From assembly GCA_944323745.1 (NCBI GenBank), contig CALUTQ010000001.1:734863-798862 (forward strand): a stretch of DNA of 64,000 nucleotides, in the 5' to 3' direction. The stretch is from Candidatus Avelusimicrobium pullarium (GTDB lineage: Bacteria > Elusimicrobiota > Elusimicrobia > Elusimicrobiales > Elusimicrobiaceae). The translations under genes and the position numbers were made by a program. This document shows, piece by piece, positions 3,339-64,000 of this stretch (position 1 is the stretch's first letter; every line of letters begins with the position of its first letter). Below the pieces are notes generated by a model that saw only the letters and a list, made by a program, of their open reading frames with translations, was not told the DNA's origin and searched no databases.

Positions 3339-6300
3339 TGTTTTATATGTCGTTTTAGTGTTTATCGGGTGGCTGTGGTTTACCGTTCAGTTTATCTTGC
3401 TGATATTGCTGCCCTGGCAGCCGGTGCAAGATTTTTTGCAAAAAGAAATTTCCCGCGCGGCCGGCCGTCCCGTGCAGGCACAGCGTATTTCGGCGCGCAT
3501 TTCGGGCTTTGTGCTGCAAGACGTTAAGGTGGCATCTTCGGCCGAAAACGCCGCCCAGGGGGAATTGTTTCAGGCGCGGCGCGTACAACTGCGCTGGAGC
3601 CCGTGGGCTTTGCTGCGCGGACGGCTGAAAATAAAAACGGTTTTACTGGACGGGCTTGATTTGCATATCATCCGCTATGCCGACGGAACATTTAATTTTG
3701 ACGGCTTTTTCGGGGCCGGTAAAGCACCCGCCTCCGCTGCCCCGGCGGAAGCAAGCGGCCTGCCTTTAGATTTAAGCATACGCAATTTACATTTAACCAA
3801 CAGTCATATTGTGTTTACGGACGAAATGCTTCATCAAACGCTGCAGGCGAATGATTTATTTTTATCGGTGCAGCATTTTACGTTTGATAAAGCTTTCCCG
3901 CTCAGTTTAAATGCCGCTTTAACTTACACTCCCGACGGGCAGGAAAGCCAAAGTGCCCAATTGGGTTTTACGCTGTGGCCCGATTTGCATAACGGTGATT
4001 GGGCCGCGGCGTCGCTTAGGATAAAACGCTTGGTCTTTAAACGTTCCGGCGGGGTAATGGTGCTGAGCGGCGAGGTAAAAAATTTGCAAGCTCCTTCTTT
4101 GCAGCTGCAAGTGCAGGGGGAAGACCTCAGCCATACAATGCTCCGCTTTCTTTATCCGGCCTTGCCTGTCTGGAGTATACAGAACGTAAAAATTGCGTTG
4201 TCTGCCACGGCGGATGTGCTTAAAAAACAGGCGGTTGTTTCCGCCCTGGATATACAGGCGGAGGATGTGGCGGTGGCTTCTTCGGACACCATTTCGCTGC
4301 CGGCGCTTACTTTGCCGCAAGCGTCTTTTTATCTTTCCGGAACGGCAGACTGGGGGAAAAAGCAGGTAGCCGTGTCTTCTTTTACAGTGCAGGGGCGTAA
4401 CATACAAGCGGCCGCGCCGGACAATTCTTGGCAGGCGGACGTGCCGGCTATGGCGCTGGAATTGGCCGCCGCGGGCAGCGCCGCGCAGCAAACTATTGAT
4501 TTAAATGCTTTGCGTGTTGAAATTTCTTCCGCCACCGTACGTGCGGAACAGGCGCCGTACGGACCGGAAGTGTACTTTCCGTATGGATCTGTGTATGCTT
4601 GCGCCAAAGCCGATCTGGCAAACAAACGGGCGGAAGTATCTTCGTTTACGGCCAGTCTGTGGTCGTCTTTCGTGGCTTCTTCCGGCACGGTTACGTGGGG
4701 GGATAAACCTTCCGTTTCCGGCCAAAGCGAGTTTGAGCTTAATTTGCGTACCATCGGGGAAGGCTTGGCCGTTTTAAAGCCCTATCAGCTGCGCGGCACG
4801 GTGCTGGGCAAGGCTGCCGGCTCGCCGGAAAATTCTTCCGCACAAATAGATTTTCAGGCGGTGGCCGGCATTTGGCCGCAAGGCGGAAAATTGACCGAGT
4901 TTGATACCCGCGCCACCATAACCGATTTGAAAAAAATAGCGTTAAACCATTTTTCCGGCAAGTGGAACGGGGACGTTTTCCGCGGGGCGTTTTCGGCCGT
5001 GCGCGGCAAGGACGCCGTGAATGCCGATTTGACATTTTACGCTAAACGGTTGGCTTTGTCTCCTATGGGGCAGGCGGCCGCAAAGCCTGAAGATGCCAAA
5101 GCGGCGTCATCCCCGTCTGCGGCACCTGCCGCGCAGGACGGTGCGCCGGCAAATGCGTTGCCAGTCAATTTAAAAGCACAAATAGACATAGACTCGCTGG
5201 ATACGTCTTATCTGTGGGGAACGGACATTCATTTTAAGGCGGATATGCAAAATGTAACGTCTTCGCTGGCGCAGGCGCACGGACAGTTGAGCCTGCAGAC
5301 GGGGTCCGGCGAGATTAAAGATTTGGACCATCTCACCCAAGCCAACTTGCTCAGCCGCGTGCTGTTCACTTCTTTAAGTGCCGTCAGCAAAGTGATTAAC
5401 AGCTTAAACGTGTTTGCCGTTTTAAATGGTTTGGGCCAGGGAATGATAGACGTGCTTTCCGACAAAAATAAGGACGAAAAACCGGCCGATATGGTGGTGC
5501 AGGTCGTCAAAGATGAAAACGGCAATGACATTGAAATTATGGTGCCGTATACCGAACAGAAAGTGGACGGACGGCTGGCCTTTGAACTGTTTACGACGGA
5601 TATGACGTTTACCGACGGAACAGCCAATTTGCAAAAAGGTTCCTTTGTGTCCGATTTAATGTCGTTTAATTTGACGGGAGATATGAATTTTCAAAATCAA
5701 CAGCTGAATATGAAAGTAAATGCCGCTCCCGGCCGCCATTACGACGACGGCATTATGCCGCTTACGCTTACCGTGGGCGGCACGATGGATAACCCCACGG
5801 GCAGTATGAATATGACGTCTTCCATTACCTCGTTTGTCACGCAGGGGGTGGCCAATAATTTTGCCAGCCGCACCGTTAAAAAAGGGCTGGGCGGCATTTT
5901 CGGTTTGTTTAAAAAGAAAGATAAGAGTGACGAGGCAAAAGAGGTGTCCGCAGCTAAAAATAGCACCCCCGCCAAAGAAGATGTTTCCGCTGCGCGCGCA
6001 GACGATGCAGCCAAGACGGCTGAGGCTTTTGCCGAAAAGGCGGCGCCTTCTGAAGGGCAAGCGCCCGCTGACGGGCAAGAAACGCAGGCGCCTGCGTCTG
6101 AGCAAGCCCTGCAACCGGCCGAAACAAATGACTCCGGCATTTCCGCCGAGCCGAAACCAACGCATACCACGCAAAACATAGGCTGGCCCGATATGCCTGC
6201 CAAACCGACGGAAACCACCCAGAACATAGGCCTGCCCGATTTGCCCGCCAAACCGACCGAAACCACGCAAAACATAGGTCTGCCTGACTTGCCGGACAAG

Positions 6301-44895: not shown

Positions 44896-44956
44896 GCAAA
44901 ACTGCCTGCAGACGTTGGCACTGTAAAATTAATAAGATATGTGTGATACTTTTGAT

Positions 44957-44977
44957 GCGGGAGCATAGTATAAACGT
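44957..44977 (+). promoter_or_regulatory. Leaderless-type promoter of the ECF sigma operon, with shared GGAGCATAGTAT motif
   Basis: TAGTAT (44966-44971) is followed by six bases and the ATG at 44978. It is part of GCGGGAGCATAGTAT, which recurs almost exactly upstream of the predicted porin-like gene at 58377-58391. This may be a target of the sigma factor itself. Confidence 0.5.
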
Positions 44978-45475
44978 ATGGCGCCTTTTGAAGATTTTTA
45001 TGAATTGTATTTTAAACGGGTGTATGCTTATGTGATGATGAGCGTCAAAGATCCGGCCTTGGCAGAGGACCTGTGCGCGCAGGCTTGGCGCAAAGCCTAC
45101 GAGCACATCGGTTCGTTTGACCAGGCAAAAGGCAATTTTGCCCAATGGATTTTTACCATTGCCCGCAACGAAATTAATATGTACCGGCGTTTGTATTGGG
45201 TAAAACATTTCTTTTCCATTACCCAGGCGGAAGAATATTTGCCGGCGGCGGACAAAGGCCCCCTGCAGGCGGTGCAGCAGGCGGAACTGAAAGAACGCGT
45301 GCTGGCGGCCGCGGCAAAATTATCGGCGCGGGAAAGAGACGTTATTTCTTTAAAGTTTTATTCCGGCCTGAACAACCGCCAAATTGCGGCGGTAACGGGA
45401 CTGAGCGAAAGCAATGTGGGCACGATTGCCCTGCGCGCGGTGCAAAAAATGCGGCGCGATATGGAGAATTTATGA
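44978..45475 (+). CDS. ECF-type RNA polymerase sigma factor
   Basis: The 165-residue protein has a sigma region 2 (FEDFYELYFKRVYAYVM through AQWIFTIARNEI) and a region 4 helix-turn-helix (LSARERDVISLKF, NRQIAAVTGLSESNVGTIALRA) with a short linker. It lacks regions 1 and 3, so it is an ECF sigma factor. Its stop overlaps the ATG of the next gene, a one-pass protein in the usual anti-sigma position. No proven target promoter is known, but its own upstream motif is found again at 58.38 kb. Confidence 0.93.
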   Translation: MAPFEDFYELYFKRVYAYVMMSVKDPALAEDLCAQAWRKAYEHIGSFDQAKGNFAQWIFTIARNEINMYRRLYWVKHFFSITQAEEYLPAADKGPLQAVQQAELKERVLAAAAKLSARERDVISLKFYSGLNNRQIAAVTGLSESNVGTIALRAVQKMRRDMENL

Positions 45476-45951
45476 AAGAAAAACAAGATTGGGTAGAAAA
45501 AGCTTCTTTATTGGACTTTGACCCGCAGGATGACGCCAAAAAACGGGTGTGGGCGCGGGTCACGCAGCCGCTTGCGGCACGCAAACCGTGGCGGCCCGTG
45601 CTGGCAATGGCGGCCGGTGTGGTATTTGTGCTGGCGGCCGGTTTGTTTGTGATGCAGCATTTGCCGGCAGGACAGGTGGGCGTGCAGGAGCAGGAACTGA
45701 GTGAAGAAGACTGCGCCAAATTAAACGGCCGCTATTTACTGGCGCGTGCCTTGGCGCAAAGCGAAGAAGACTGCACCTGCAAAGACAATTTGACGGACTA
45801 CGACAAGCAAACGCTTTTGCAGCTGCGCCAAGAGCTGGCTACCGTGGCTTGCACGGTGTGCACGGCCAAAGAACAGCAGCAGCTGCACCAATGCCGGCAG
45901 AAGTATCCTTCCCAATTAAAAGAATTTAAATTGTGCGATACTATGTGTTAG
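45472..45951 (+). CDS. Putative anti-sigma factor with eight extracytoplasmic cysteines
   Basis: The 159-residue protein has a cytoplasmic N-terminus of about 42 residues, one membrane helix (about 43-62) and a C-terminal domain with cysteines at 81, 101, 103, 127, 130, 141, 155 and 159. All eight lie after the helix, that is, on the predicted periplasmic side. No zinc-binding HxxxCxxC anti-sigma motif is seen in the N-terminus. The start ATG lies within the sigma factor stop (ATGA), so translation is coupled. The anti-sigma role is inferred from position and topology. The even number of cysteines and the thioredoxin-CcdA gene 8 bases downstream suggest redox sensing. Confidence 0.72.
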   Translation: MKEKQDWVEKASLLDFDPQDDAKKRVWARVTQPLAARKPWRPVLAMAAGVVFVLAAGLFVMQHLPAGQVGVQEQELSEEDCAKLNGRYLLARALAQSEEDCTCKDNLTDYDKQTLLQLRQELATVACTVCTAKEQQQLHQCRQKYPSQLKEFKLCDTMC

Positions 45952-45959
45952 GAGCAATT

Positions 45960-47351
45960 ATGAAAAATAAGTTCGTATTTAAACTATTTTCCGCCTTGCT
46001 TATGGCGCTGTGCCTGTGGGCCGTGCCTGCTTGGGCGGCCGAACCGGTGGAAGTGATGGTGTTTACCTCGCCTTATTGCCCGCATTGCCGGCATATGGAG
46101 CAAGACGGCTTTGTGGACGCTTTTGCCGCCAAACACAAAGGGGAAATTACCATTTTGCGCTATGACGTAACGCAAAACGGAGGCAACATTATCTTTTTGC
46201 AAATTTTAAAAGAAAAAGGGGTTAACTCCGCCGGAATACCGGCTATGGTTATTGGCGATGAAGTGCTGCAGGGCTATCCCCGCTCTATCGGTACCCGCAG
46301 CGAAGAAGTGCTGAAAAATTGGCTCAAAATCCGCCGCGCTAAAGAAGCCGCGCAACAGGCCGCTTCTGAAAAAACCGTGCAAAAAGCAGCCGAAGAAAAC
46401 AAATTGGCCGCGCCTGCTCAAAAAAAGCCAGCGCAGCCTGCCGTCAAAAAACAAGAAACAAAGCCTGTCCTTGCGCAAGAAGCCAAGGCAGCAGAGCCTG
46501 CCCAAACAAAGCAGTCCGCTCCGTCCGCCGCAGCGGAAACAAAGGCGCAGTCTGCCGTGCAAGAACCCGAAGGGGCCGCGCAAGATGCGGCTTTGGCCCA
46601 ACACGAGGCCTTTTTTAACCAAATTACGGTTTGGGCCATTATCGGGGCCGGTTTGGCAGACGGCATTAACCCGTGTGCGTTTGCCGTAATCGTATTTTTC
46701 ATTTCTTTCCTGGCTGTCTATAAATACAACCGCAAAGAAATTATTTTGGTAGGGTCGGCTTATTGTGCCTCCGTCTTTGTGGCCTATATGCTGCTGGGGC
46801 TTGGCTTTTTCCGCTTTTTGTACGCGATGAAAGGGCTTACCTATATTACGCTGGCTATTCAATGGGCGACGATTGCTTTGTGTGCGCTGTTCTTTGTGCT
46901 CAGCCTGTACGACTTTTGGATCTACCGCAAAACCAAACAGTCCGACAAAATGCTCTTGCAGTTGCCGCGCAGTTATAAAGAATATATTCACAAAGTGATG
47001 CGCTTTTTCTTAAAAGACAAACACAGTTCTTCCTGGCGTTTGGTGCTGGCGGCTTGCTGCGTGGGGTTTGTGGTGTCTTTGGTGGAAGCGGTTTGCACGG
47101 GCCAGGTGTATTTGCCCACCATTATGGTCATCTTAAAAGAAGCCGACAAGCATTTCTTTAAAGCGGCCGAATATTTGGTGCTTTATAACCTAATGTTTAT
47201 CGTACCGCTGGTGCTGGTATTTGTGCTGGCGTTGTGCGGCAAAGAATCGGCCACGTTTAACAACTGGCTCAAAAAACATTTGGGGCTTACCAAACTGCTT
47301 TTGTGCTGTGTCTTTTTAGGCCTGTTATTGTTACTGTTATTTAACATGTAA
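45960..47351 (+). CDS. Thioredoxin-like/CcdA-like fusion, transmembrane thiol-redox protein
   Basis: The 463-residue protein has a signal peptide (1-27) and a thioredoxin/glutaredoxin-like domain with the active site C40-P-H-C43 and cis-proline segment GIPAM at 92-96. A linker of about 90 residues rich in Ala, Lys, Gln and Pro (128-215) leads to a six-helix CcdA/DsbD-type domain. Its two membrane cysteines are visible as GINPC239AF and EAVC379TGQVY. CcdA-type domains carry electrons from cytoplasmic thioredoxin to periplasmic thiols, and the fused thioredoxin domain is the likely acceptor. The start at 45960 follows GGAG. It is the third gene of the ECF sigma operon, followed by a terminator. 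Confidence 0.88.
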   Translation: MKNKFVFKLFSALLMALCLWAVPAWAAEPVEVMVFTSPYCPHCRHMEQDGFVDAFAAKHKGEITILRYDVTQNGGNIIFLQILKEKGVNSAGIPAMVIGDEVLQGYPRSIGTRSEEVLKNWLKIRRAKEAAQQAASEKTVQKAAEENKLAAPAQKKPAQPAVKKQETKPVLAQEAKAAEPAQTKQSAPSAAAETKAQSAVQEPEGAAQDAALAQHEAFFNQITVWAIIGAGLADGINPCAFAVIVFFISFLAVYKYNRKEIILVGSAYCASVFVAYMLLGLGFFRFLYAMKGLTYITLAIQWATIALCALFFVLSLYDFWIYRKTKQSDKMLLQLPRSYKEYIHKVMRFFLKDKHSSSWRLVLAACCVGFVVSLVEAVCTGQVYLPTIMVILKEADKHFFKAAEYLVLYNLMFIVPLVLVFVLALCGKESATFNNWLKKHLGLTKLLLCCVFLGLLLLLLFNM

Positions 47352-47376
47352 CAACCTCACAAACATACAAACAGGA

Positions 47377-47406
47377 CCCCCGCCCGCAAGCGGGGGTTTT
47401 GTTTTG
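47377..47406 (+). terminator. Terminator after the ECF sigma operon
   Basis: ACCCCCG and CGGGGGT pair closely around a short loop and are followed by TTTGTTTT. Confidence 0.88.
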
Positions 47407-47443
47407 GCCCCTTTTTTGCTACAACAAAAGCAGGAGGTGAATA

Positions 47444-56767: not shown

Positions 56768-58102
56768 TTAAACGGCGGCTTTCTTTTCAGACGAGCGCGG
56801 CCCTTTGCGCGGGTAGCCCAGCCAAATGGCCGTCAGCGCCCCGATACCCAAAAGATACGGATAATACAAATATTGCATAATCGCCACCGGAGAAAGCCCC
56901 GAAAGTCCCGCCGCCATCAGCAGTTGGGCACCGTAGGGAATGGCCCCCTGTACAAAACAGGAAAAAATGTCCAAAATACTGGCCGAACGGTTGGCCGGAA
57001 TTTTAAACCGCGTGGCGATTTCTTTGGCGATAGGGCCGGCCATAATCAGCGCAATAGTGTTATTGGCCGTACATAAATTGGCAAACCCCACCAGACCGGC
57101 AATGGAAAGCTCCGCCTTGCGGACGGAATTGGCCTTAGCGGTCATTTTTTGAATGATCCAGGCAAACCCGCCGTTTAAGCGGATCATTTCCAGCATACCG
57201 CCGGCTAAAATGGTGACTACAATCAGCTCGCCCATTCCGTTAATGCCTTTGCCCATTGCTCCCGTCCAGCCCCAGGCATCAAAAGCCCCCGTTAAAAGGC
57301 CTATAAGGCCCGCCAGCAGCGTGCCGCCCAAAAGCACCGTCATTACGTGCACGCCGGCCAAAGCCGCCGCCAAAACCGCCAGATAGGGCAATACGTGCAG
57401 CCAGTTGACTGCCCCTGCCTGATAAGGCTCGGCCGCGTTTTTACCCATTAAAAAATAGGCCAGCACCGTCAGCGCCGCAAAGGGCAGCACAATGCGCAGA
57501 TTGGTGCGGAATTTGTCTTTCATACGGCAGCCTTGGGTGCGGGTGGCCACGATGGTAGTGTCCGAAATAAAAGAAAGATTGTCGCCAAACATTGCTCCGC
57601 TGACTACGGCTGCGGTAATAAGCGCCGGCGAAACGCCCGTTTTTTGTGCAATACCGGCCGCCACGGGCGTTAACGCCACAATAGTGCCGACGGAGGTGCC
57701 CACCGAAACAGACACAAAACAGGCGGCCAAAAACAAACCGGGAACCAGCAGATTATGCGGCAGCAGCCAAAGGGTCAGGTTGACGGTGCTGTCCACCGCG
57801 CCCATCGTCTGGGTCGTTTGGGCAAAGGCGCCGGCTAAAATAAAAATCAGCACCATAAGCATAATGTTGCCGTCGGCGGCTCCTTTGCAGAAATATTCTA
57901 TTTTTTGGGAGATGTTGCCCCCTTTAGAGGCCACCACCGCCACTACGGAAGCAAGCACAAAAGCTACCGTAATGGGCATTTTGTAAAAATCACCTGCCAG
58001 TAAAGACACGGCCAGATAGGCAATTAAAAAAACCCATAAAGGCAGCAAAGCCCAGGCATTGGGTTTTGCGGGGGGAACGGGCAAAGAAGTAAGCGGATCC
58101 AT
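56768..58102 (-). CDS. NhaC-family Na+/H+ antiporter-like transporter
   Basis: The 444-residue protein has about eleven membrane helices. Features such as FVSVSVGTSVGTIVALTPVAAGIA, SGAMFGDNLSFISDTTIVATRTQGC and IPYGAQLLMAA are typical of the NhaC/ArsB-type ion transporter superfamily. Na+/H+ exchange is likely, but related members move malate/lactate or other organic ions. It is a single gene; the tRNA-Arg(CCG) and its terminator lie upstream on the same strand. Confidence 0.87.
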   Translation of the reverse strand: MDPLTSLPVPPAKPNAWALLPLWVFLIAYLAVSLLAGDFYKMPITVAFVLASVVAVVASKGGNISQKIEYFCKGAADGNIMLMVLIFILAGAFAQTTQTMGAVDSTVNLTLWLLPHNLLVPGLFLAACFVSVSVGTSVGTIVALTPVAAGIAQKTGVSPALITAAVVSGAMFGDNLSFISDTTIVATRTQGCRMKDKFRTNLRIVLPFAALTVLAYFLMGKNAAEPYQAGAVNWLHVLPYLAVLAAALAGVHVMTVLLGGTLLAGLIGLLTGAFDAWGWTGAMGKGINGMGELIVVTILAGGMLEMIRLNGGFAWIIQKMTAKANSVRKAELSIAGLVGFANLCTANNTIALIMAGPIAKEIATRFKIPANRSASILDIFSCFVQGAIPYGAQLLMAAGLSGLSPVAIMQYLYYPYLLGIGALTAIWLGYPRKGPRSSEKKAAV

Positions 58103-58126
58103 AATTTATGTTCTCTTTTAACCTAA

Positions 58127-58147
58127 AAAAACCCCTTAACGGGGAAC
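58127..58147 (-). terminator. Putative terminator after tRNA-Arg(CCG)
   Basis: On the minus strand CCCC and GGGG pair across GTTAA and are followed by seven T residues. The stem is short. Confidence 0.6.
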
Positions 58148-58243
58148 AAACACAGAGGGTTTCATTTAGGCGGTGAACGTAACGAAAAGCGGAAATAAGA
58201 AGAAAAACTGACGTCTGTCCTTTACTAAATGAACAATCTGATA

Positions 58244-58315
58244 TGCGCCCGGCGGGAGTCGAACCCACATCTCCAGCTTCGGAGGCTGACGCTCTATCCA
58301 TTGAACTACGGGCGC
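58244..58315 (-). tRNA. tRNA-Arg(CCG)
   Basis: The minus strand folds as a complete 72-nt tRNA: acceptor GCGCCCG/CGGGCGC, anticodon loop CTCCGAA with anticodon CCG (reads CGG), T-loop TTCGACT and a four-base variable loop AGAT. CCA is not encoded. Confidence 0.96.
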
Positions 58316-58376
58316 AAATAACCGGCGGCTATCTGCCGCCGAATATATTTTATCATATTAGACGGAAGCTTTGTTT

Positions 58377-58391
58377 GCCGGAGCATAGTAT
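58377..58391 (+). promoter_or_regulatory. GGAGCATAGTAT motif upstream of the porin-like gene
   Basis: GCCGGAGCATAGTAT matches the site in front of the ECF sigma gene in 14 of 15 bases. It lies 75 bases before the ATG of the predicted outer-membrane protein. A second TATACT box, preceded by TTGC, is near 58422. Confidence 0.4.
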
Positions 58392-58466
58392 CTTTATCCG
58401 CTGGCGAAAAAATAAAATAGTTGCTATACTGAAAACAGCGGCAAATTCTTTTTAGACGGAGAATAT

Positions 58467-59219
58467 ATGTTAAAACATCTAGGGGTTGTGCTGGGTTTGT
58501 GTGTGTTTGGAGCTCTTTCTGCTTCGGCGCAAATTCAGAAGTTTTGCATCCCCGGGGTGGCGCCCTCGCGTAACGTAACGTCGCTGGAGCTGTCTCCTTC
58601 TACCAGCATTATTGATGACAAGGGGGGCATTTCTTCCAGCGCGCTGACGACCAAAATGTATTATGCCTTTACGCCCGATTACAATATCGGCATAGAAGTG
58701 CCGCTTTCCCGCTATGAAGTGCCCGGTGATTCCGTCAACGGGCTTGGGGATATTTTGCTGGCGGCGGAGGCGATTCATTCCGTGCACCATATTGACTGGG
58801 GCCTAAAGCTGGAAACAACGCTGCCTACCGCTACAGACCAAGCCTTGGGCACGGGCAAGTGGGTGCTTATGCCTTCGGTATTTGCTTTGGTGCCGGTAAA
58901 CGAAAATTTCTTTCTTTCCTTCGGGTATAAGCAATATTCTTCCATTGCCGGCGACGGGGGGAGAAAATCGGTTAATTATGCCCGTGTGCGTGCGTTGATT
59001 TCTTATATGGCCGATGCCCAGTGGTGGGTTACGTTTGACCCGCAGTATTATATGGACTATGACCGTTCCGGCCAGGCGGAGCTGGTGTGGGAAAGCGAAA
59101 TAGGCGTTATGGTCAACCCGGGAACGGCAATGTATATTAAACCCGGCGCGCATTTGGGCGGCAACTGGAAAACGCGCGACTGGACGTTGAGTATGGGCTT
59201 TAAGATATTGTACCTGTGA
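58467..59219 (+). CDS. Predicted outer-membrane beta-barrel (porin-like) protein
   Basis: The 250-residue protein has a signal peptide (about 1-21, ending SASAQ). The rest is a succession of amphipathic strands with alternating aromatic residues (LTTKMYYAFTPDYNIGIEVPL, FFLSFGYKQYSS, AQWWVTFDPQYYMDY). It ends in an aromatic-hydrophobic strand (GFKILYL), as outer-membrane barrels often do. It resembles the MetA-pathway/transporter-like barrel group, but the exact family is uncertain. GGAG precedes the ATG. A motif shared with the ECF sigma promoter lies upstream. Confidence 0.7.
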   Translation: MLKHLGVVLGLCVFGALSASAQIQKFCIPGVAPSRNVTSLELSPSTSIIDDKGGISSSALTTKMYYAFTPDYNIGIEVPLSRYEVPGDSVNGLGDILLAAEAIHSVHHIDWGLKLETTLPTATDQALGTGKWVLMPSVFALVPVNENFFLSFGYKQYSSIAGDGGRKSVNYARVRALISYMADAQWWVTFDPQYYMDYDRSGQAELVWESEIGVMVNPGTAMYIKPGAHLGGNWKTRDWTLSMGFKILYL

Positions 59220-59328
59220 CCGTTTGAAAAATGCTTGCGACGGTATGAAGAAAAATTTTGTAAATATTTTTCAAAAATGTTAAAATAAATGTGTAGTAAA
59301 AAACAGGTTGTAAAAAATATCCTTTTAA

Positions 59329-59403
59329 GCGCCCATAGCTCAATGGATAGAGTGTCAGCCTGCGGAGCTGAAGATACAAGTTCGATTCCTGTTGGGCGCA
59401 CCA
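59329..59403 (+). tRNA. tRNA-Arg(GCG), border of the acquired region
   Basis: A 72-nt tRNA plus encoded CCA: acceptor GCGCCCA/TGGGCGC, anticodon stem TCAGC/GCTGA and anticodon loop CTGCGGA with anticodon GCG (reads CGC/CGU). A20 and C35 are arginine identity features. The T-stem ACAAG/CCTGT has one A-C mismatch (pair 52-62). GCG is rare among bacterial tRNA-Arg, which normally use ACG. This is the only one of the three tRNAs here with encoded CCA. The sequence behind it is A/T-rich and carries defence-type genes. Confidence 0.9.
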
Positions 59404-59733
59404 TTTAAAATGGTTCTAAACGGAGTTTAACAAAGTTTAATTCTCCGACGATAAAAGAGCCAAAAAGATATAAAAAGACCTCCTAAAACCAGGAGGTCTT
59501 TTTTTAATGCAGTTTAATGGATTTTAACGCATTTTGACCAAAAATGGACACTTTTTGGACACCTCTTTCCCCTCTATAAATCGCTATAATACAACAAAAT
59601 ATTATTTTAAGATTACAGAATGGAAGACATTACAAATATCTAACGTGAAATCGTTCTGTATTCTGCAAGAACAAGGAAGATAGCAGCCCAATAGGGCCGG
59701 TACAAGATATAAAAATGATATTTTTAAATCATC
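59404..59733. other. Intergenic border of the island: terminator, short direct repeats, no gene
   Basis: No coding sequence is seen. A strong terminator lies at 59473-59506. TGGACAC occurs at 59545-59551 and 59556-59562, eleven bases apart, a helical-phase repeat such as found at integrase or repressor sites. TATAAT-like sequence is near 59586. The stretch is A/T-rich compared with the region before the tRNA. Confidence 0.5.
59473..59506 (+). terminator. Terminator after tRNA-Arg(GCG)
   Basis: AAAGACCTCCT and AGGAGGTCTTT form an 11-bp perfect stem followed by T residues. Confidence 0.9.
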
Positions 59734-62295
59734 TCAGTGCAGATTTCTAAGCATATTGATAATTTTTTCTTTTTCATTGCTATCATTAGTTTTAAAACGT
59801 AAAAATGGAAAAGAGTATTTTGTAAGAATCCTATCTTTTATAGAATCTCTTTTTTGCTGCCGAAAGTTAAAGAAATGATATCTAAAACCATCTACTTCAA
59901 TAATGGCCCGTGGTTTTTTATTGAGCTTATTAAAAATAAGGAAATCCACATGAGTCCAAGAGCGTGTTGCATATTGGGCTTCTTCTGGCGTAAGGATTGA
60001 AAAGTCTTTAATGATATTGCGCAAGGGAACATGCATTCTAAATTGATACTTTTGAAATTCTTTTTGCTGCAATATTTGAGCAAGCAGTTGGTACATTAAA
60101 TTCTCGCTGTCGTATGGAGAAACTCTATTCCCATGTAATAGCCGCTCACGTTCTTCTTGGTATTGTTGATAGAGCAAGTCAAATACAGAGTGCACCTTGC
60201 TATTGGTAGCTCCGGCACTATGATATTCTATATAGTCCATTAAATCCTGAACATAACCAGCTTTATTGTTTTGATTGCCATTTGTTACAACAATTAATTG
60301 CTTTTTGGCTCTGGAAACGGCCACATTTAAACGATTTGGCTGATCTGTAAAATCAGAAATTTGATTATCAACTGTCGAGATAATAATAATATCTTTTTCC
60401 CGGCCCTGGAATTTATCAACCGTATCGGCTTGTACAGAGGTATGGGCGAAAGCCTGTTGGAGGGCTTTTGTTTGTTCTCGATAAGGTGTTACAATACCGA
60501 TGGTTTCGGATGTTGATTCCAACTTTTCCTTTGGAAATACTTCGCTTTTAATTACCTCCATCTGCCGTAAATTGAGATGCCCCCGGGCGTGGTTTCCTGG
60601 AACTGTTTTATAGAGCACGAGTGGAGGCCGGGTGTATGTATCTTTGGAAAATATAAGCAATTGGTTATCATAAAATTTTTCATTGCAAAAGCCGATAATT
60701 TTGGGATGGCAACGATAGTGTTCTTTGAGCATAGTTTGTGGAATTTCAGGGAATAAGTTCAGTATAGATTGCAAGAAACTGTGTGTACTGTACCGATAGG
60801 CTTCCGGAAGAGGATATTTAGCAAAAATAGCGTCCGTTTTTTGCTTGGTGCTGAAATCTACCACATTGGGGAGTTGCTTGGAATCACCTACAACCACCGC
60901 TTTTTGGGCACAGGAAAGAGCCAAAGCCCCTGTAGCAATATCCACCTGGGAGGCTTCATCAATAATTACATAGTCATAGATAATCCGACTGGATAGACTG
61001 CTGCGCAAGGAATAGGTCGTACTTAAAATAACGGGATAATCTTTTAGAAAACTGGCAGATTTTTGCCATAATGTTTCCAATTGATAGACAGGCCTGGATT
61101 GTGCTGAATATTTAGCAGCGAGTTTGCCTTTTAATAAGCGTAGTGAAAGCGCCGAATATTCGTTCATCTTCTCTTCAAAATTGTAATTCCCCAGAATATT
61201 TTCTATTTCCTGGATGTCCGTTTTTAAGTTATTGCTTTTTTTTACATAGTGCTGCTTTTGTACGGTGTCTAAAATTGTATCAGAGTAAGATTGGCGACTA
61301 TTTCCCCATTTTAAGCCAAATTTAATTCGATAGTAAATTCTAAAAAAGAACCAAAGAAAGCTCGGTAAGGAACATGAATGTTCATAACTGATTAGGAAAT
61401 CCAATAAATCACTTGTAGATAACTTTTCTGAGAGTCCTGTAAATAGTATATTCTCTGGATGCCGTTCGTGAAAATACTGACAAAAATGTTGGTATTCCGT
61501 CTCCAAATCGCGTTTTTGTTGTTGAAGTTCTGCAAGTCTATTTTTGTATTTTAGCATCCCTGACAAATCTGTACCAAGCGTGTTTAGATGGGTTTTAAGC
61601 ATTGTTTCGTCAGTATCCGATAATTTCCAGTTAGCTAAGTCGGACGGAATATGTTTTTGTGCTTGTGCATTAATGAAATTTTGCTTATTTTGGGTATTTC
61701 CTAAGTAGGCTGAGATAAAGGATATGCCATATTTTCCCAGTTTTTCTTGAATATTCGCAGTTGCCGTGTTGTTGTTCGATACCACAGCAACTGTTTTTCC
61801 GAGCACAATTGCATTTGCAATGATATTTAAAATGGTTTGCGTCTTGCCCGTCCCGGGAGGGCCTTGAATAACGCTTTGAGAATAAGTTAATGCTTTTTCA
61901 ACAGCCGCTTTTTGAGATGTATTAAACCCAAAAGGAAATATAGCAAGGGGAACAGCATCGGGTACAGGGTTGAATGTTGACGTTAAATACGAAGAAAGGA
62001 TAGAGTCCTCACGAATGAAATCAATGCGGGAATAATGTTGAGAAAGGATATTGTCCCCTTCTGGGGTTAATAAGCCTATAGCTTTTGCAATATCTTTTAA
62101 ATAATTAAAACAGTTTTTTGCGTCCAGATTGGATAGCGTGGAATGAATTATTTTGACATTCTTTTTATTGTAAAAGTATGTTTTGGGATCGTTGTGAAAA
62201 ACAATTTTAATTTTACTTCCTATATCGTTTAAGGTTTTAATTTGTTGGGTTTTATCTTCTCCTTTTATCAGGATTATTCGTTCTTGTTTAGGCAT
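59734..62295 (-). CDS. Superfamily 1 (Upf1-like) helicase with C-terminal DUF2726 nuclease-like domain
   Basis: The 853-residue protein has an AAA_11/AAA_12 helicase core: Walker A GPPGTGKT at 145-152, Walker B VIIDEASQVD, VDKFQGREKDIIIIST and the final helicase motif RLNVAVSRAKKQL. The last ~120 residues form a DUF2726-like domain with HVDFLIFN and AIIEVDGFRYH, a plausible PD-(D/E)xK nuclease core. Such helicase-nuclease fusions occur in mobile defence islands; a defence role is inferred. Codons are clearly more A/T-rich than in the rest of the window, a sign of transfer. A TAGTAT box lies six bases before the ATG. Confidence 0.87.
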   Translation of the reverse strand: MPKQERIILIKGEDKTQQIKTLNDIGSKIKIVFHNDPKTYFYNKKNVKIIHSTLSNLDAKNCFNYLKDIAKAIGLLTPEGDNILSQHYSRIDFIREDSILSSYLTSTFNPVPDAVPLAIFPFGFNTSQKAAVEKALTYSQSVIQGPPGTGKTQTILNIIANAIVLGKTVAVVSNNNTATANIQEKLGKYGISFISAYLGNTQNKQNFINAQAQKHIPSDLANWKLSDTDETMLKTHLNTLGTDLSGMLKYKNRLAELQQQKRDLETEYQHFCQYFHERHPENILFTGLSEKLSTSDLLDFLISYEHSCSLPSFLWFFFRIYYRIKFGLKWGNSRQSYSDTILDTVQKQHYVKKSNNLKTDIQEIENILGNYNFEEKMNEYSALSLRLLKGKLAAKYSAQSRPVYQLETLWQKSASFLKDYPVILSTTYSLRSSLSSRIIYDYVIIDEASQVDIATGALALSCAQKAVVVGDSKQLPNVVDFSTKQKTDAIFAKYPLPEAYRYSTHSFLQSILNLFPEIPQTMLKEHYRCHPKIIGFCNEKFYDNQLLIFSKDTYTRPPLVLYKTVPGNHARGHLNLRQMEVIKSEVFPKEKLESTSETIGIVTPYREQTKALQQAFAHTSVQADTVDKFQGREKDIIIISTVDNQISDFTDQPNRLNVAVSRAKKQLIVVTNGNQNNKAGYVQDLMDYIEYHSAGATNSKVHSVFDLLYQQYQEERERLLHGNRVSPYDSENLMYQLLAQILQQKEFQKYQFRMHVPLRNIIKDFSILTPEEAQYATRSWTHVDFLIFNKLNKKPRAIIEVDGFRYHFFNFRQQKRDSIKDRILTKYSFPFLRFKTNDSNEKEKIINMLRNLH

Positions 62296-62307
62296 ATTAA
62301 TATACTA
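62296..62307 (-). promoter_or_regulatory. Leaderless-type promoter of the helicase gene
   Basis: On the minus strand TAGTAT (complement of 62302-62307) is followed by six bases and the ATG at 62295. Confidence 0.55.
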
Positions 62308-62402
62308 CTATATTCAGATTAGATTCTTTTAGTTTTAATACGCCAGACTTGGGTTAAAAATAAATTTTTCAGGAACAATATAGATCATATCAATAGAAAA
62401 AC

Positions 62403-62429
62403 AAAAACCCCGCATTAGGCGGGGTTAAT
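62403..62429 (-). terminator. Terminator after the restriction gene
   Basis: On the minus strand AACCCCGCC and the complementary GCGGGGTT pair and are followed by TTTGTTTTT. Confidence 0.85.
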
Positions 62430-62435
62430 TGCCCT

Positions 62436-64000
62436 TTATTTTGAAAAGGTTTCAAAACACGCTAGATCCCTATTCAAAAGAACCTCACTGTGGGGAATAA
62501 GCAAATACTTCCACTTTTTAGCCCCCGTTTCAGCAGCTGACTCATTCACCCGTTTTACCCAAGTGGTGGCCGCGTTGGCTTTTTCTTCTACTTCTGAGAG
62601 TTCTAAATCCCGGGCGCTCTTGATTTCTATTAAAAAGAGATTTTCAGCCGTTTCTACCACAAAATCCGGCTGATATTTATGGCTCCCATTGCGCCAGTAA
62701 ATATCAAACTGCCTGTCACTGGGTCGAAGCCATTTTAAGACTTTTGGATCTTGCTCTAAAATGCTGGCAAAATCCTTTTCCGCCTTAGAATCAAACTTAT
62801 ACAGATTATGACAGGCTTTTTGAAACCCTGTAAAAACCTTGCTGGGGATTTGGCTAGTAGGTTCGATAGTAGCGGTATAGTGGTACACCTTATCAGCCGT
62901 AATTTTATCGTAATTATGCGGGTAAATCCTTTCAAACGGATACACTTTTGCGGCTGTGTAGTCCGGCGGAACATAAACGGCATGTTGCTTCATTTGGGCA
63001 AAAATTAACTCCGCTATAGGTTTGCGGAAACTTACCAGCACATTTTTTACATCTTCTTCTTTCAAATAGCTTTTTAATTTAGTAATTACGGCCTGCACAA
63101 AACTATGCAGTAAATCGGCATAATCCTCGTATGGAATTTCCGGTATATCATACAGGGCCGACAACAAAATGTTTTCCGCACTCTCTTGGTTAATATCCCC
63201 TGATACTTTCCCCTGTAAAAAAGCAAATTTTCCATCGGTTAAGGATTTAATAAAAATCTCCTGGGAAGCAGGTTGATACGTAATGTTAGTCGTATCCAGT
63301 TCAAACGGCTGGAACTTCAAATATCCATCTTTCCCCGGCTGTACAATTAACCGCGGGATGGGAATAATGCTAGAAACAAACTGCTGCACCAGTTGGGGCA
63401 GATGTTTTTTAATATCTGCTATTTGATCCTTAGCAAACAAACTGCTCCCGGTTAATTCTTCTTCCAACCGGTTTATGGCTATCTCCTGTGTTGCGGGAGA
63501 AGACAAATCCCCAATAGTTTTTACATCAGAACCCATTTTAGGCAAAATTTTATCTTGCAAAATAGCCACCGCCTCTTTGGCTTCTGGGGTTTGAGGAACC
63601 CAAAAAGACGTTTCTGGCGCTTTTGCCGCTTCTTCCCGCTGGGCCACCAGTATGGGTTTAGAAACAATTACCTCTTTGGCGGGAGTATTGTCAAAATCGT
63701 CGTCCAGTTCAATAATGTTTTCTTTGCGCAGCAGGCTTCCTTCCCGGTTGGCTTCATCAATAATAGCCTGGAATCTGTCGTGCGCCACAATAGTCAGCCT
63801 GTCGGCAGTATCATCGTTAGTAATCCGCCCATACGGCAAGCGCAAACCACGCCCGATAGTCTGTTCCGTAAGGGTATCCGAAGCGGACGCCCTCAAGGGG
63901 ACGATAGTATACAGGTTTGTAACGTCCCACCCTTCTTTAAGCATATTTACGTGAATAACAATTTCTGTTTTATTTAGCGGATTTTCCACAGAGAGTAACT
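62436..64000 (-). CDS. Type III restriction enzyme Res-like subunit, C-terminal two-thirds (cut by window edge)
   Basis: About 521 residues are visible, and the reading frame stays open to the right edge. The visible start of the domain has VIHVNMLKEGWDV and LTEQTIGRGLRLPYGR, the late helicase motifs V and VI of Res/SSL2-type enzymes. A PD-(D/E)xK nuclease core follows near the end: YQPDFVVET then FLIEIKSA. This is the layout of type III restriction endonuclease subunits, whose partner Mod methyltransferase would be expected beyond the window edge. No methyltransferase is visible here, so a stand-alone DEAD/DEAH helicase-nuclease is the alternative. Confidence 0.85.
   Translation of the reverse strand, partial: LLSVENPLNKTEIVIHVNMLKEGWDVTNLYTIVPLRASASDTLTEQTIGRGLRLPYGRITNDDTADRLTIVAHDRFQAIIDEANREGSLLRKENIIELDDDFDNTPAKEVIVSKPILVAQREEAAKAPETSFWVPQTPEAKEAVAILQDKILPKMGSDVKTIGDLSSPATQEIAINRLEEELTGSSLFAKDQIADIKKHLPQLVQQFVSSIIPIPRLIVQPGKDGYLKFQPFELDTTNITYQPASQEIFIKSLTDGKFAFLQGKVSGDINQESAENILLSALYDIPEIPYEDYADLLHSFVQAVITKLKSYLKEEDVKNVLVSFRKPIAELIFAQMKQHAVYVPPDYTAAKVYPFERIYPHNYDKITADKVYHYTATIEPTSQIPSKVFTGFQKACHNLYKFDSKAEKDFASILEQDPKVLKWLRPSDRQFDIYWRNGSHKYQPDFVVETAENLFLIEIKSARDLELSEVEEKANAATTWVKRVNESAAETGAKKWKYLLIPHSEVLLNRDLACFETFSK

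Follow-up and report, generated by a model that had tools for sequence, protein, structure and literature searches.

How bacteria measure the thiol-disulfide state of their envelope is, in our judgement, poorly known, and a 2.4 kb operon of Candidatus Avelusimicrobium pullarium (Elusimicrobiota; Elusimicrobiaceae) raises the question of whether a sensor, a switch and an output for this task can be encoded side by side. The operon lies in the window analysed here, a stretch of 64,000 nucleotides (assembly GCA_944323745.1, contig CALUTQ010000001.1, positions 734,863 to 798,862, forward strand) of a host genome of 1.6 Mb in two contigs (C1 and C2), and it encodes, in this order, an extracytoplasmic function (ECF) sigma factor, a membrane protein with a cysteine-rich tail, hereafter protein 2, and a fusion of a thioredoxin-like domain to a CcdA/DsbD-like membrane domain. 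We suggest, with a confidence only slightly better than even, that the operon works as an autoregulated envelope thiol homeostat. Comparison of the sequences demonstrated a conserved gene order, conserved cysteines, a coupling between modules and a conserved promoter, and we infer that the operon senses thiols. Sensor, switch, output and a tiny regulon would then stand together in 2.4 kb, in an arrangement recurring in many genomes, and one promoter with three genes would be enough to test whether an anti-sigma factor senses thiols.

Gene order and promoter of the operon

The three genes are tightly packed (Table 1): the ATG of protein 2 overlaps the stop codon of the sigma gene (ATGA), and the ATG of the fusion gene lies 8 bases past the stop of protein 2, in agreement with a preliminary description of this DNA, which had reported three overlapping or closely spaced genes. 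The start given there, 44957, was 21 bases too early, being followed by an in-frame TAG (44966-44968) and lying inside the promoter. The sigma factor is a short protein in which both regions 2 and 4 are clearly recognised (Pfam Sigma70_r2, E = 1.6e-13; Sigma70_r4_2, E = 2.6e-10), as is typical of the ECF type. Its best NCBIfam profile is TIGR02952 (BldN family; 112.9 bits, under the cut-off of 206), and the closest solved sequence is 6dxo, which we take to be BldN from the RsbN-BldN complex. With respect to the nearest relative (L053), the ratio of nonsynonymous to synonymous substitution rates (dN/dS) was 0.10 for the sigma factor, 0.18 for protein 2 and 0.13 for the tail of protein 2.

The same three-gene order, which the preliminary description had proposed to look for in related genomes, was indeed found there: 30 loci were detected when named genomes were scanned, 24 of them with sigma, protein 2 and fusion complete and in order. 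The remaining loci were one cut by a contig end before the sigma gene (L071), four with the fusion only (L072, L073, L075 and L081) and a distant match (L082) whose record bears the name Nomurabacteria. The loci found include Candidatus Avelusimicrobium, and the nearest named relatives are uncultured Elusimicrobiales. A chance cluster of genes was rejected, because the order is conserved in many genomes; the dN/dS values given above speak against chance as well.

Upstream of the sigma gene there is an ECF-type promoter, GTGATACTTTT-N9-GCATAGTA, which matches exactly the conserved pattern GTGATACTTTT-N9-GCATARTA; by chance, 0.02 matches at up to 3 mismatches would be expected in the window. Since just 7 bases separate the end of its -10 element from the sigma ATG, the mRNA of the sigma gene may have little or no leader. 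Of the 26 loci with a sigma gene, 16 had an exact upstream site; in the others the best site showed one mismatch (5 loci), two (2 loci), four (2 loci) or seven (1 locus), i.e., 0-2 mismatches in 23 loci. In the whole host genome only two sites with up to 3 mismatches were found, one ahead of this operon and the other ahead of a sister sigma operon (reversed control, 0). A wider regulon, sought in the host genome with two patterns at up to 3 mismatches, was not found, and weaker promoters could escape such a search. Across 90 genomes of the family, 42 sites deviated from the pattern by no more than one mismatch, and 41 of these lie ahead of a match, on the same strand, to sigma factors of the kind studied here, ending 7-42 bp before the start of the match, a point that may be a few codons inside the gene. 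The lone site with no sigma behind it (G115) precedes a 202-aa cysteine-containing lipoprotein-like gene; among ten two-mismatch sites, 7 precede a sigma gene and 3 do not. The presence of the promoter before the operon, and at sigma genes in 41 of 42 sites, indicates therefore that the fusion belongs to the regulon of its own sigma factor, which supports the earlier idea of a redox enzyme placed inside its own regulon. Because the same promoter precedes both sigma operons of the host genome, the two sigma factors may read each other's promoter.

The sister operon (L083, 4628-6172; C1:555627 onward in the host) lies behind the same promoter with one mismatch and encodes a sigma factor 43% identical to that studied here, an anti-sigma of 106 aa with one helix and a secreted protein with two RYW repeats, of unknown family. 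In another locus (L206, about 2060-2135), we observed two divergent copies of the promoter, with two mismatches each, one preceding a sigma gene and the other a further RYW protein.

Table 1. Coordinates, in the window, of the operon and of its sequence features
Feature	Position	Strand	Remarks
Conserved ECF-type promoter, GTGATACTTTT-N9-GCATAGTA	44943..44970	+	exact match to the conserved pattern
ECF sigma factor gene	44978..45475	+	ATG 44978, TGA 45473-45475, 165 aa
Protein 2 gene (putative anti-sigma)	45472..45951	+	ATG 45472, 159 aa
Putative cytoplasmic anti-sigma domain, protein 2 residues 1-42	45472..45597	+	two predicted helices around the invariant DFD motif
Single membrane helix, residues ~43-62	45598..45657	+	hydropathy; the model shows a helix at 41-62
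Extracytoplasmic domain rich in cysteine (eight Cys)	45658..45951	+	related, by eye, to the RYW repeats that sister operons encode in secreted proteins
Thioredoxin/CcdA-like fusion gene	45960..47351	+	ATG 45960, 463 aa
CPHC active-site codons	46077..46088	+	sequence, alignment
GC-rich hairpins and T-runs, possible terminator	47376..47412	.	downstream of the operon

Protein 2 and its putative sigma-binding domain

As is expected of a membrane anti-sigma factor, protein 2 is encoded next to a sigma factor and has one membrane helix; its eight cysteines (81, 99, 101, 126, 129, 140, 155 and 159) all lie beyond this helix, and the translation bears out the preliminary description in both respects. 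Across an alignment of 25 homologues, M1, D15, F16, D17, C101 and C159 do not vary, and no other residue is invariant; C81 is present in 24. A low-confidence model places helices at residues 3-12 and 21-31 of the N-terminal domain. Protein 2 has no Pfam family above the cut-off, and a search of the PDB with its profile gave no useful match (a single one, at E = 7.8); NCBIfam NF052375, 'anti-sigma factor', weakly matches 11 of the 25 members (E<=1, best 0.0083) and PRK13920, 'putative anti-sigmaE protein', matches 8 of them at E<=1. Two known kinds of anti-sigma were tried and rejected: the zinc anti-sigma factors (class I, ZAS), as residues 1-42 contain neither Cys nor His and hence no HxxxCxxC, which had already been noticed for the cytoplasmic part, and the NrsF/OsrA group (DUF1109), as there is one helix and not six, and no DUF1109 Pfam match at E<=1.

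Related N-terminal domains were found adjoining related sigma factors, joined to outer modules of three types. Type I has the cysteine-rich tail, with the fusion gene downstream; type II has a tail of ~40-60 residues and a separate secreted RYW-repeat protein, and occurs in the host genome at C1:555 kb; type III has a VWA domain with a YfbK-type C-terminus (Pfam was run on two members). More distant sigma factors, from other families of the order and class, are paired with still other secreted partners. Because related N-terminal domains accompany related sigma factors under such different outer modules, protein 2 is very likely an anti-sigma factor, as the comparison of sequences indicates and as the preliminary description had suggested. 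The other possibility, that protein 2 is a membrane-bound thiol protein acting as substrate or electron partner of the fusion, with the sigma factor controlled in some other way, would fit the missing Pfam match and the indirect nature of the case for sigma binding; nevertheless, we consider it very improbable, given the translational overlap with the sigma gene and the presence of a related N-terminal domain next to related sigma factors in proteins whose outer part is a VWA domain or a short tail, at loci where the fusion gene is absent.

In a broader interpretation, which we put forward tentatively and to which we give somewhat less than an even chance, the operon would be part of a large modular family of ECF switches of Elusimicrobiota, in which a common core of sigma and DFD anti-sigma is combined with envelope sensors that can be exchanged, every sensor having an effector gene of its own. 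In the redox version the anti-sigma would carry its own disulfide sensor, and a transmembrane thiol reductase expressed from the same promoter would read and reset it; this promoter being common to the sister operon, the regulon would consist of two operons genome-wide. Such a family suggests that outer sensor modules of unrelated kinds can be fitted to one anti-sigma core, as a natural case of sensor swapping. Eight loci (L154-L156, L158-L161 and L164) have, beside a sigma gene, anti-sigma-like N-termini followed by long extracytoplasmic parts (616-910 aa in total); VWA/YfbK was recognised by Pfam in L154 and L156, and the other long-tailed members look alike by eye.

Tail cysteines and the fusion gene

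The tails were compared in 66 non-identical classifiable anti-sigmas, with identical proteins counted once and leaving out two rows near a contig end and the loci without a readable sigma (e.g., L047 and L071). Where a fusion gene is adjacent (30 of 30 anti-sigmas), the tail contains 4-9 cysteines, or 3.7-9.2% of its residues, in contrast to 0-4 (0-2.7%) in all the 36 without it, a set made up of loci that we chose to retrieve and that does not represent all existing ones; the sole no-fusion protein with 4 tail cysteines has a tail of 847 residues. The pooled densities were 7.7% and 0.22%, respectively. At the sequence level this shows that tail cysteines and fusion gene are coupled; because the anti-sigmas compared are related, the result does not stand for many independent events, and perhaps reflects one ancestral gain.

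The cysteines are also the best preserved part of the tail. Between the four type I groups, aligned cysteines were kept in 60% of comparisons, leucines in 40% and all other residues in at most 21%. Groups A, B and D have in common a CxC and a C-terminal cysteine pair, the other tail residues being 5-15% identical; the rumen group C has neither of them, and only four well-spaced cysteines. The preliminary description would have been abandoned had homologues with the same gene order lacked conserved cysteines, and these are conserved.

Cysteines so arranged might bind metal. In that case the tail would hold Cu, Zn, Cd or similar, the operon would answer thiol-reactive metals and the fusion would only keep thiols reduced or repair damage, which would agree with the CxC, CxxC and CxxxC spacings; moreover, NrsF of Caulobacter, the partner of SigF, with two conserved periplasmic cysteines and a small regulon, responds to Cr and Cd independently of disulfide stress (PMC3511200). 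We consider metal sensing unlikely, since in the rumen group the cysteines number only four, lie well apart and form no CxC, since the immediate neighbours of the operon (a MATE efflux gene, a DUF4491 gene and one gene of unknown kind) include nothing recognisable as a metal transporter or metal chaperone, and since none of the 36 anti-sigmas without an adjacent fusion has a cysteine-rich tail.

Alternatively, the cysteines could merely form stabilising disulfides in a domain that senses misfolded envelope proteins or the state of wall or lipids, with the fusion as a refolding effector. The tail resembles, by eye, the RYW repeats of secreted type II proteins, and in these the cysteines equivalent to C81 and C140 are both present in 9 repeats, both absent in 29 and single in only 1 (n = 39 of 42; three without a readable tail were omitted, including L217, which has both cysteines by eye). 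The discordant repeat, the second of the host genome, was caught at a shifted position, and the repeats are related in sequence, so that the statistical significance of the pairing is overstated. Because this both-or-neither pattern recurs without an adjacent fusion gene, C81/C140 look like an inherited structural disulfide, and therefore the sensor cysteines, if any, are more likely to be found among C99, C101, C126, C129, C155 and C159; the eight cysteines need not all be sensors, a point on which the earlier reading is corrected. A purely structural role for all of them would also agree with the sister systems, which have a related sigma and the same promoter, no adjacent fusion, and cysteine-free RYW repeats likened to sensors of something else. 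It is, in our opinion, an improbable explanation, as type I tails have at least one further cysteine pair and are more cysteine-rich than the no-fusion tails, and as their cysteines are kept while the remaining tail diverges.

The fusion itself has a signal-peptide-like start (by eye), a periplasmic thioredoxin/glutaredoxin-like domain with CPHC at residues 40-43, an Ala/Lys/Pro-rich linker and a CcdA/DsbD-like membrane domain with the motifs NPC (C239) and VCTG (C379). Residues C40, H42, C43, P94, C239 and C379 are invariant in 16 of 16 fusions, and so are C269, C308 and C449 of the membrane part. The CxHC motif together with the cis-proline P94 is typical of the thioredoxin superfamily, and C239 and C379 provide the two conserved membrane cysteines of CcdA/DsbD proteins, at positions that we take to be CcdA-like. 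At E<=1, Pfam Thioredoxin matches all the 16 members (best 8.8e-8; the fusion of the window, 0.00027, is under the cut-off), as does the ArsG-type model NF040495 (best 3.7e-6). In the earlier reading of a CPHC thioredoxin joined to a CcdA-type carrier, the motifs and both membrane cysteines stand; the DsbD/CcdA character of the membrane half is recognised only weakly.

In 61 genomes (the host and 60 relatives), a fusion match at E<=0.001 was found in 40, a count that includes a fusion paralogue and partial matches, and protein 2 in 17. Among 340 genomes of the phylum, 58 matched the protein 2 profile, 114 the sigma (E<=1e-20) and 91 the fusion (E<=1e-30, paralogues included). Because more genomes match the fusion than protein 2, the distribution of the fusion, judged by these matches, is wider than that of the switch. 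A midpoint-rooted tree of 50 fusions (of 77 rows, after removal of duplicates) gathers the sigma-linked ones into a single group of 38 rows, of which 32 are linked, 5 are unlinked and 1 lies at a contig end; a separate, unlinked group of paralogues makes up the remaining 12 and includes the second copy of the host genome, on contig 2. In L075 (about 3880-3938), sigma and anti-sigma are missing, as if lost, between the fusion and an upstream ligase-like gene, which is the one preceding the sigma gene in L076-L079.

A possible redox circuit and its known relatives

In the circuit that we envisage, protein 2 would bind the ECF sigma factor by its short N-terminal DFD domain and hold it inactive, while the cysteine-rich outer domain would report whether thiols in the envelope are reduced or form disulfides. 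Oxidation or mispairing of key cysteines would change the shape of the domain and release the sigma factor, which would then transcribe its own operon, increasing sigma, anti-sigma and fusion, and probably the sister sigma operon too. The fusion would pass electrons from cytoplasmic thioredoxin over the membrane to the CPHC domain, and would reduce envelope disulfides, including those of the sensor, closing a negative feedback loop. Sigma binding, activation by oxidation, electron flow and the action of the fusion on the sensor are the steps that we infer; activation upon oxidation was preferred because the opposite sign would let the reductase reinforce its own induction.

Several observations weigh against this circuit. 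Four of the 30 loci lack sigma and anti-sigma but still encode a protein closely related to the fusion, and hence the enzyme can do without the switch. Binding of protein 2 to the sigma factor is predicted from gene context, and the models of protein 2 have low confidence: the mean predicted local distance difference test (pLDDT) score was 65, and 59 for a second model, headed by a four-cysteine homologue. Compared with PDB folds, the first model gave no match better than E = 2.5; neither was used for disulfide pairing. The probably structural C81/C140 pair, and the CxC and CxxC spacings, which would fit metal binding too, reduce the case for sensing. As for the enzyme, its membrane half is weakly assigned to DsbD/CcdA: DsbD_TM matches, at E<=1, just 4 of the 16 members (best E = 0.0032) and not the fusion of the window, and, because the same profile finds nothing in the whole host genome at E<=1, the CcdA label rests on topology and cysteines. 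As regards the source of oxidation, searches of the host genome for proteins of the DsbA and VKOR families found none (DsbB was not searched). Finally, three of the four rumen-group loci have a strongly altered promoter (4, 4 and 7 mismatches); a looser pattern found the same two sites in the host genome, and also 2 sites in its reversed control; and over the 90 family genomes the search at up to 3 mismatches was noisy, with 131 sites versus 73 in the reversed control, so that those with three mismatches are probably mostly due to chance. Secreted proteins of related genomes were seen to carry paired cysteines, despite the failure to find DsbA or VKOR in the host genome.

The role of the operon is close to a known kind; what differs is the anti-sigma, the sensor domain and the wiring within one operon. 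CcdA, DsbD and ScsB electron carriers combine a thioredoxin-like domain with a membrane domain having two conserved cysteines, and differ from the fusion, whose thioredoxin domain is N-terminal and whose membrane domain is below the Pfam thresholds. CnrY works with a separate metal sensor, CnrX. CnrY (class II) and RsbN (class III) use short helical sigma-binding segments (PMC7406223), as is predicted for protein 2; no sequence match between them and protein 2 was found in the PDB profile search. A close precedent is EcfF/OsrA of Bradyrhizobium (ECF16; NrsF-type; PMC3420878), which also pairs an ECF sigma with a membrane anti-sigma behind an autoregulated promoter: OsrA needs the periplasm-exposed C179 to release EcfF on H2O2, and the co-regulated genes include a periplasmic thioredoxin and a DsbD-beta-like protein. 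OsrA has six predicted helices and two cysteines, whereas protein 2 and its counterparts have a single helix, a short domain with the DFD motif and 4-9 cysteines in the tail, and thioredoxin and membrane carrier are one protein within the sigma operon. SigF/NrsF and Brucella BcrS/AbcS share with our system a membrane anti-sigma with two or more conserved cysteines, two in their case (PMC3511200, PMC8315932); theirs belong to the six-helix NrsF/DUF1109 family and their effectors are unlike those described here, the target operon adjacent to BcrS/AbcS encoding a peptide rich in Met together with a putative Met-sulfoxide reductase system. A literature search at the level of titles and abstract starts, covering few subscription papers, found no description of the three-gene operon. 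This agrees with the earlier remark, made before any literature search, that no described system with this exact set was known; the concept was preceded by OsrA/EcfF and NrsF/SigF.

Some minor features complete the picture of the region and of the host genome. Terminator-like sites such as that downstream of the operon numbered 10 in the scanned stretch versus a mean of 5.1 in shuffles, weak evidence by itself for a terminator. A third ECF operon of the host (L085, 4482-6115; C2:18.5 kb) encodes a charged secreted protein and an anti-sigma that, from its HxxxCxxC (judged by eye), is of the zinc type. In the window, positions 58000-64000 form a low-GC stretch (0.38-0.43), likely a defence island, and near the window edge the genes at 59734-62295 and 62436-63989, both on the minus strand, encode a MkoA/GajB-type-like helicase and a type III restriction enzyme-like protein.

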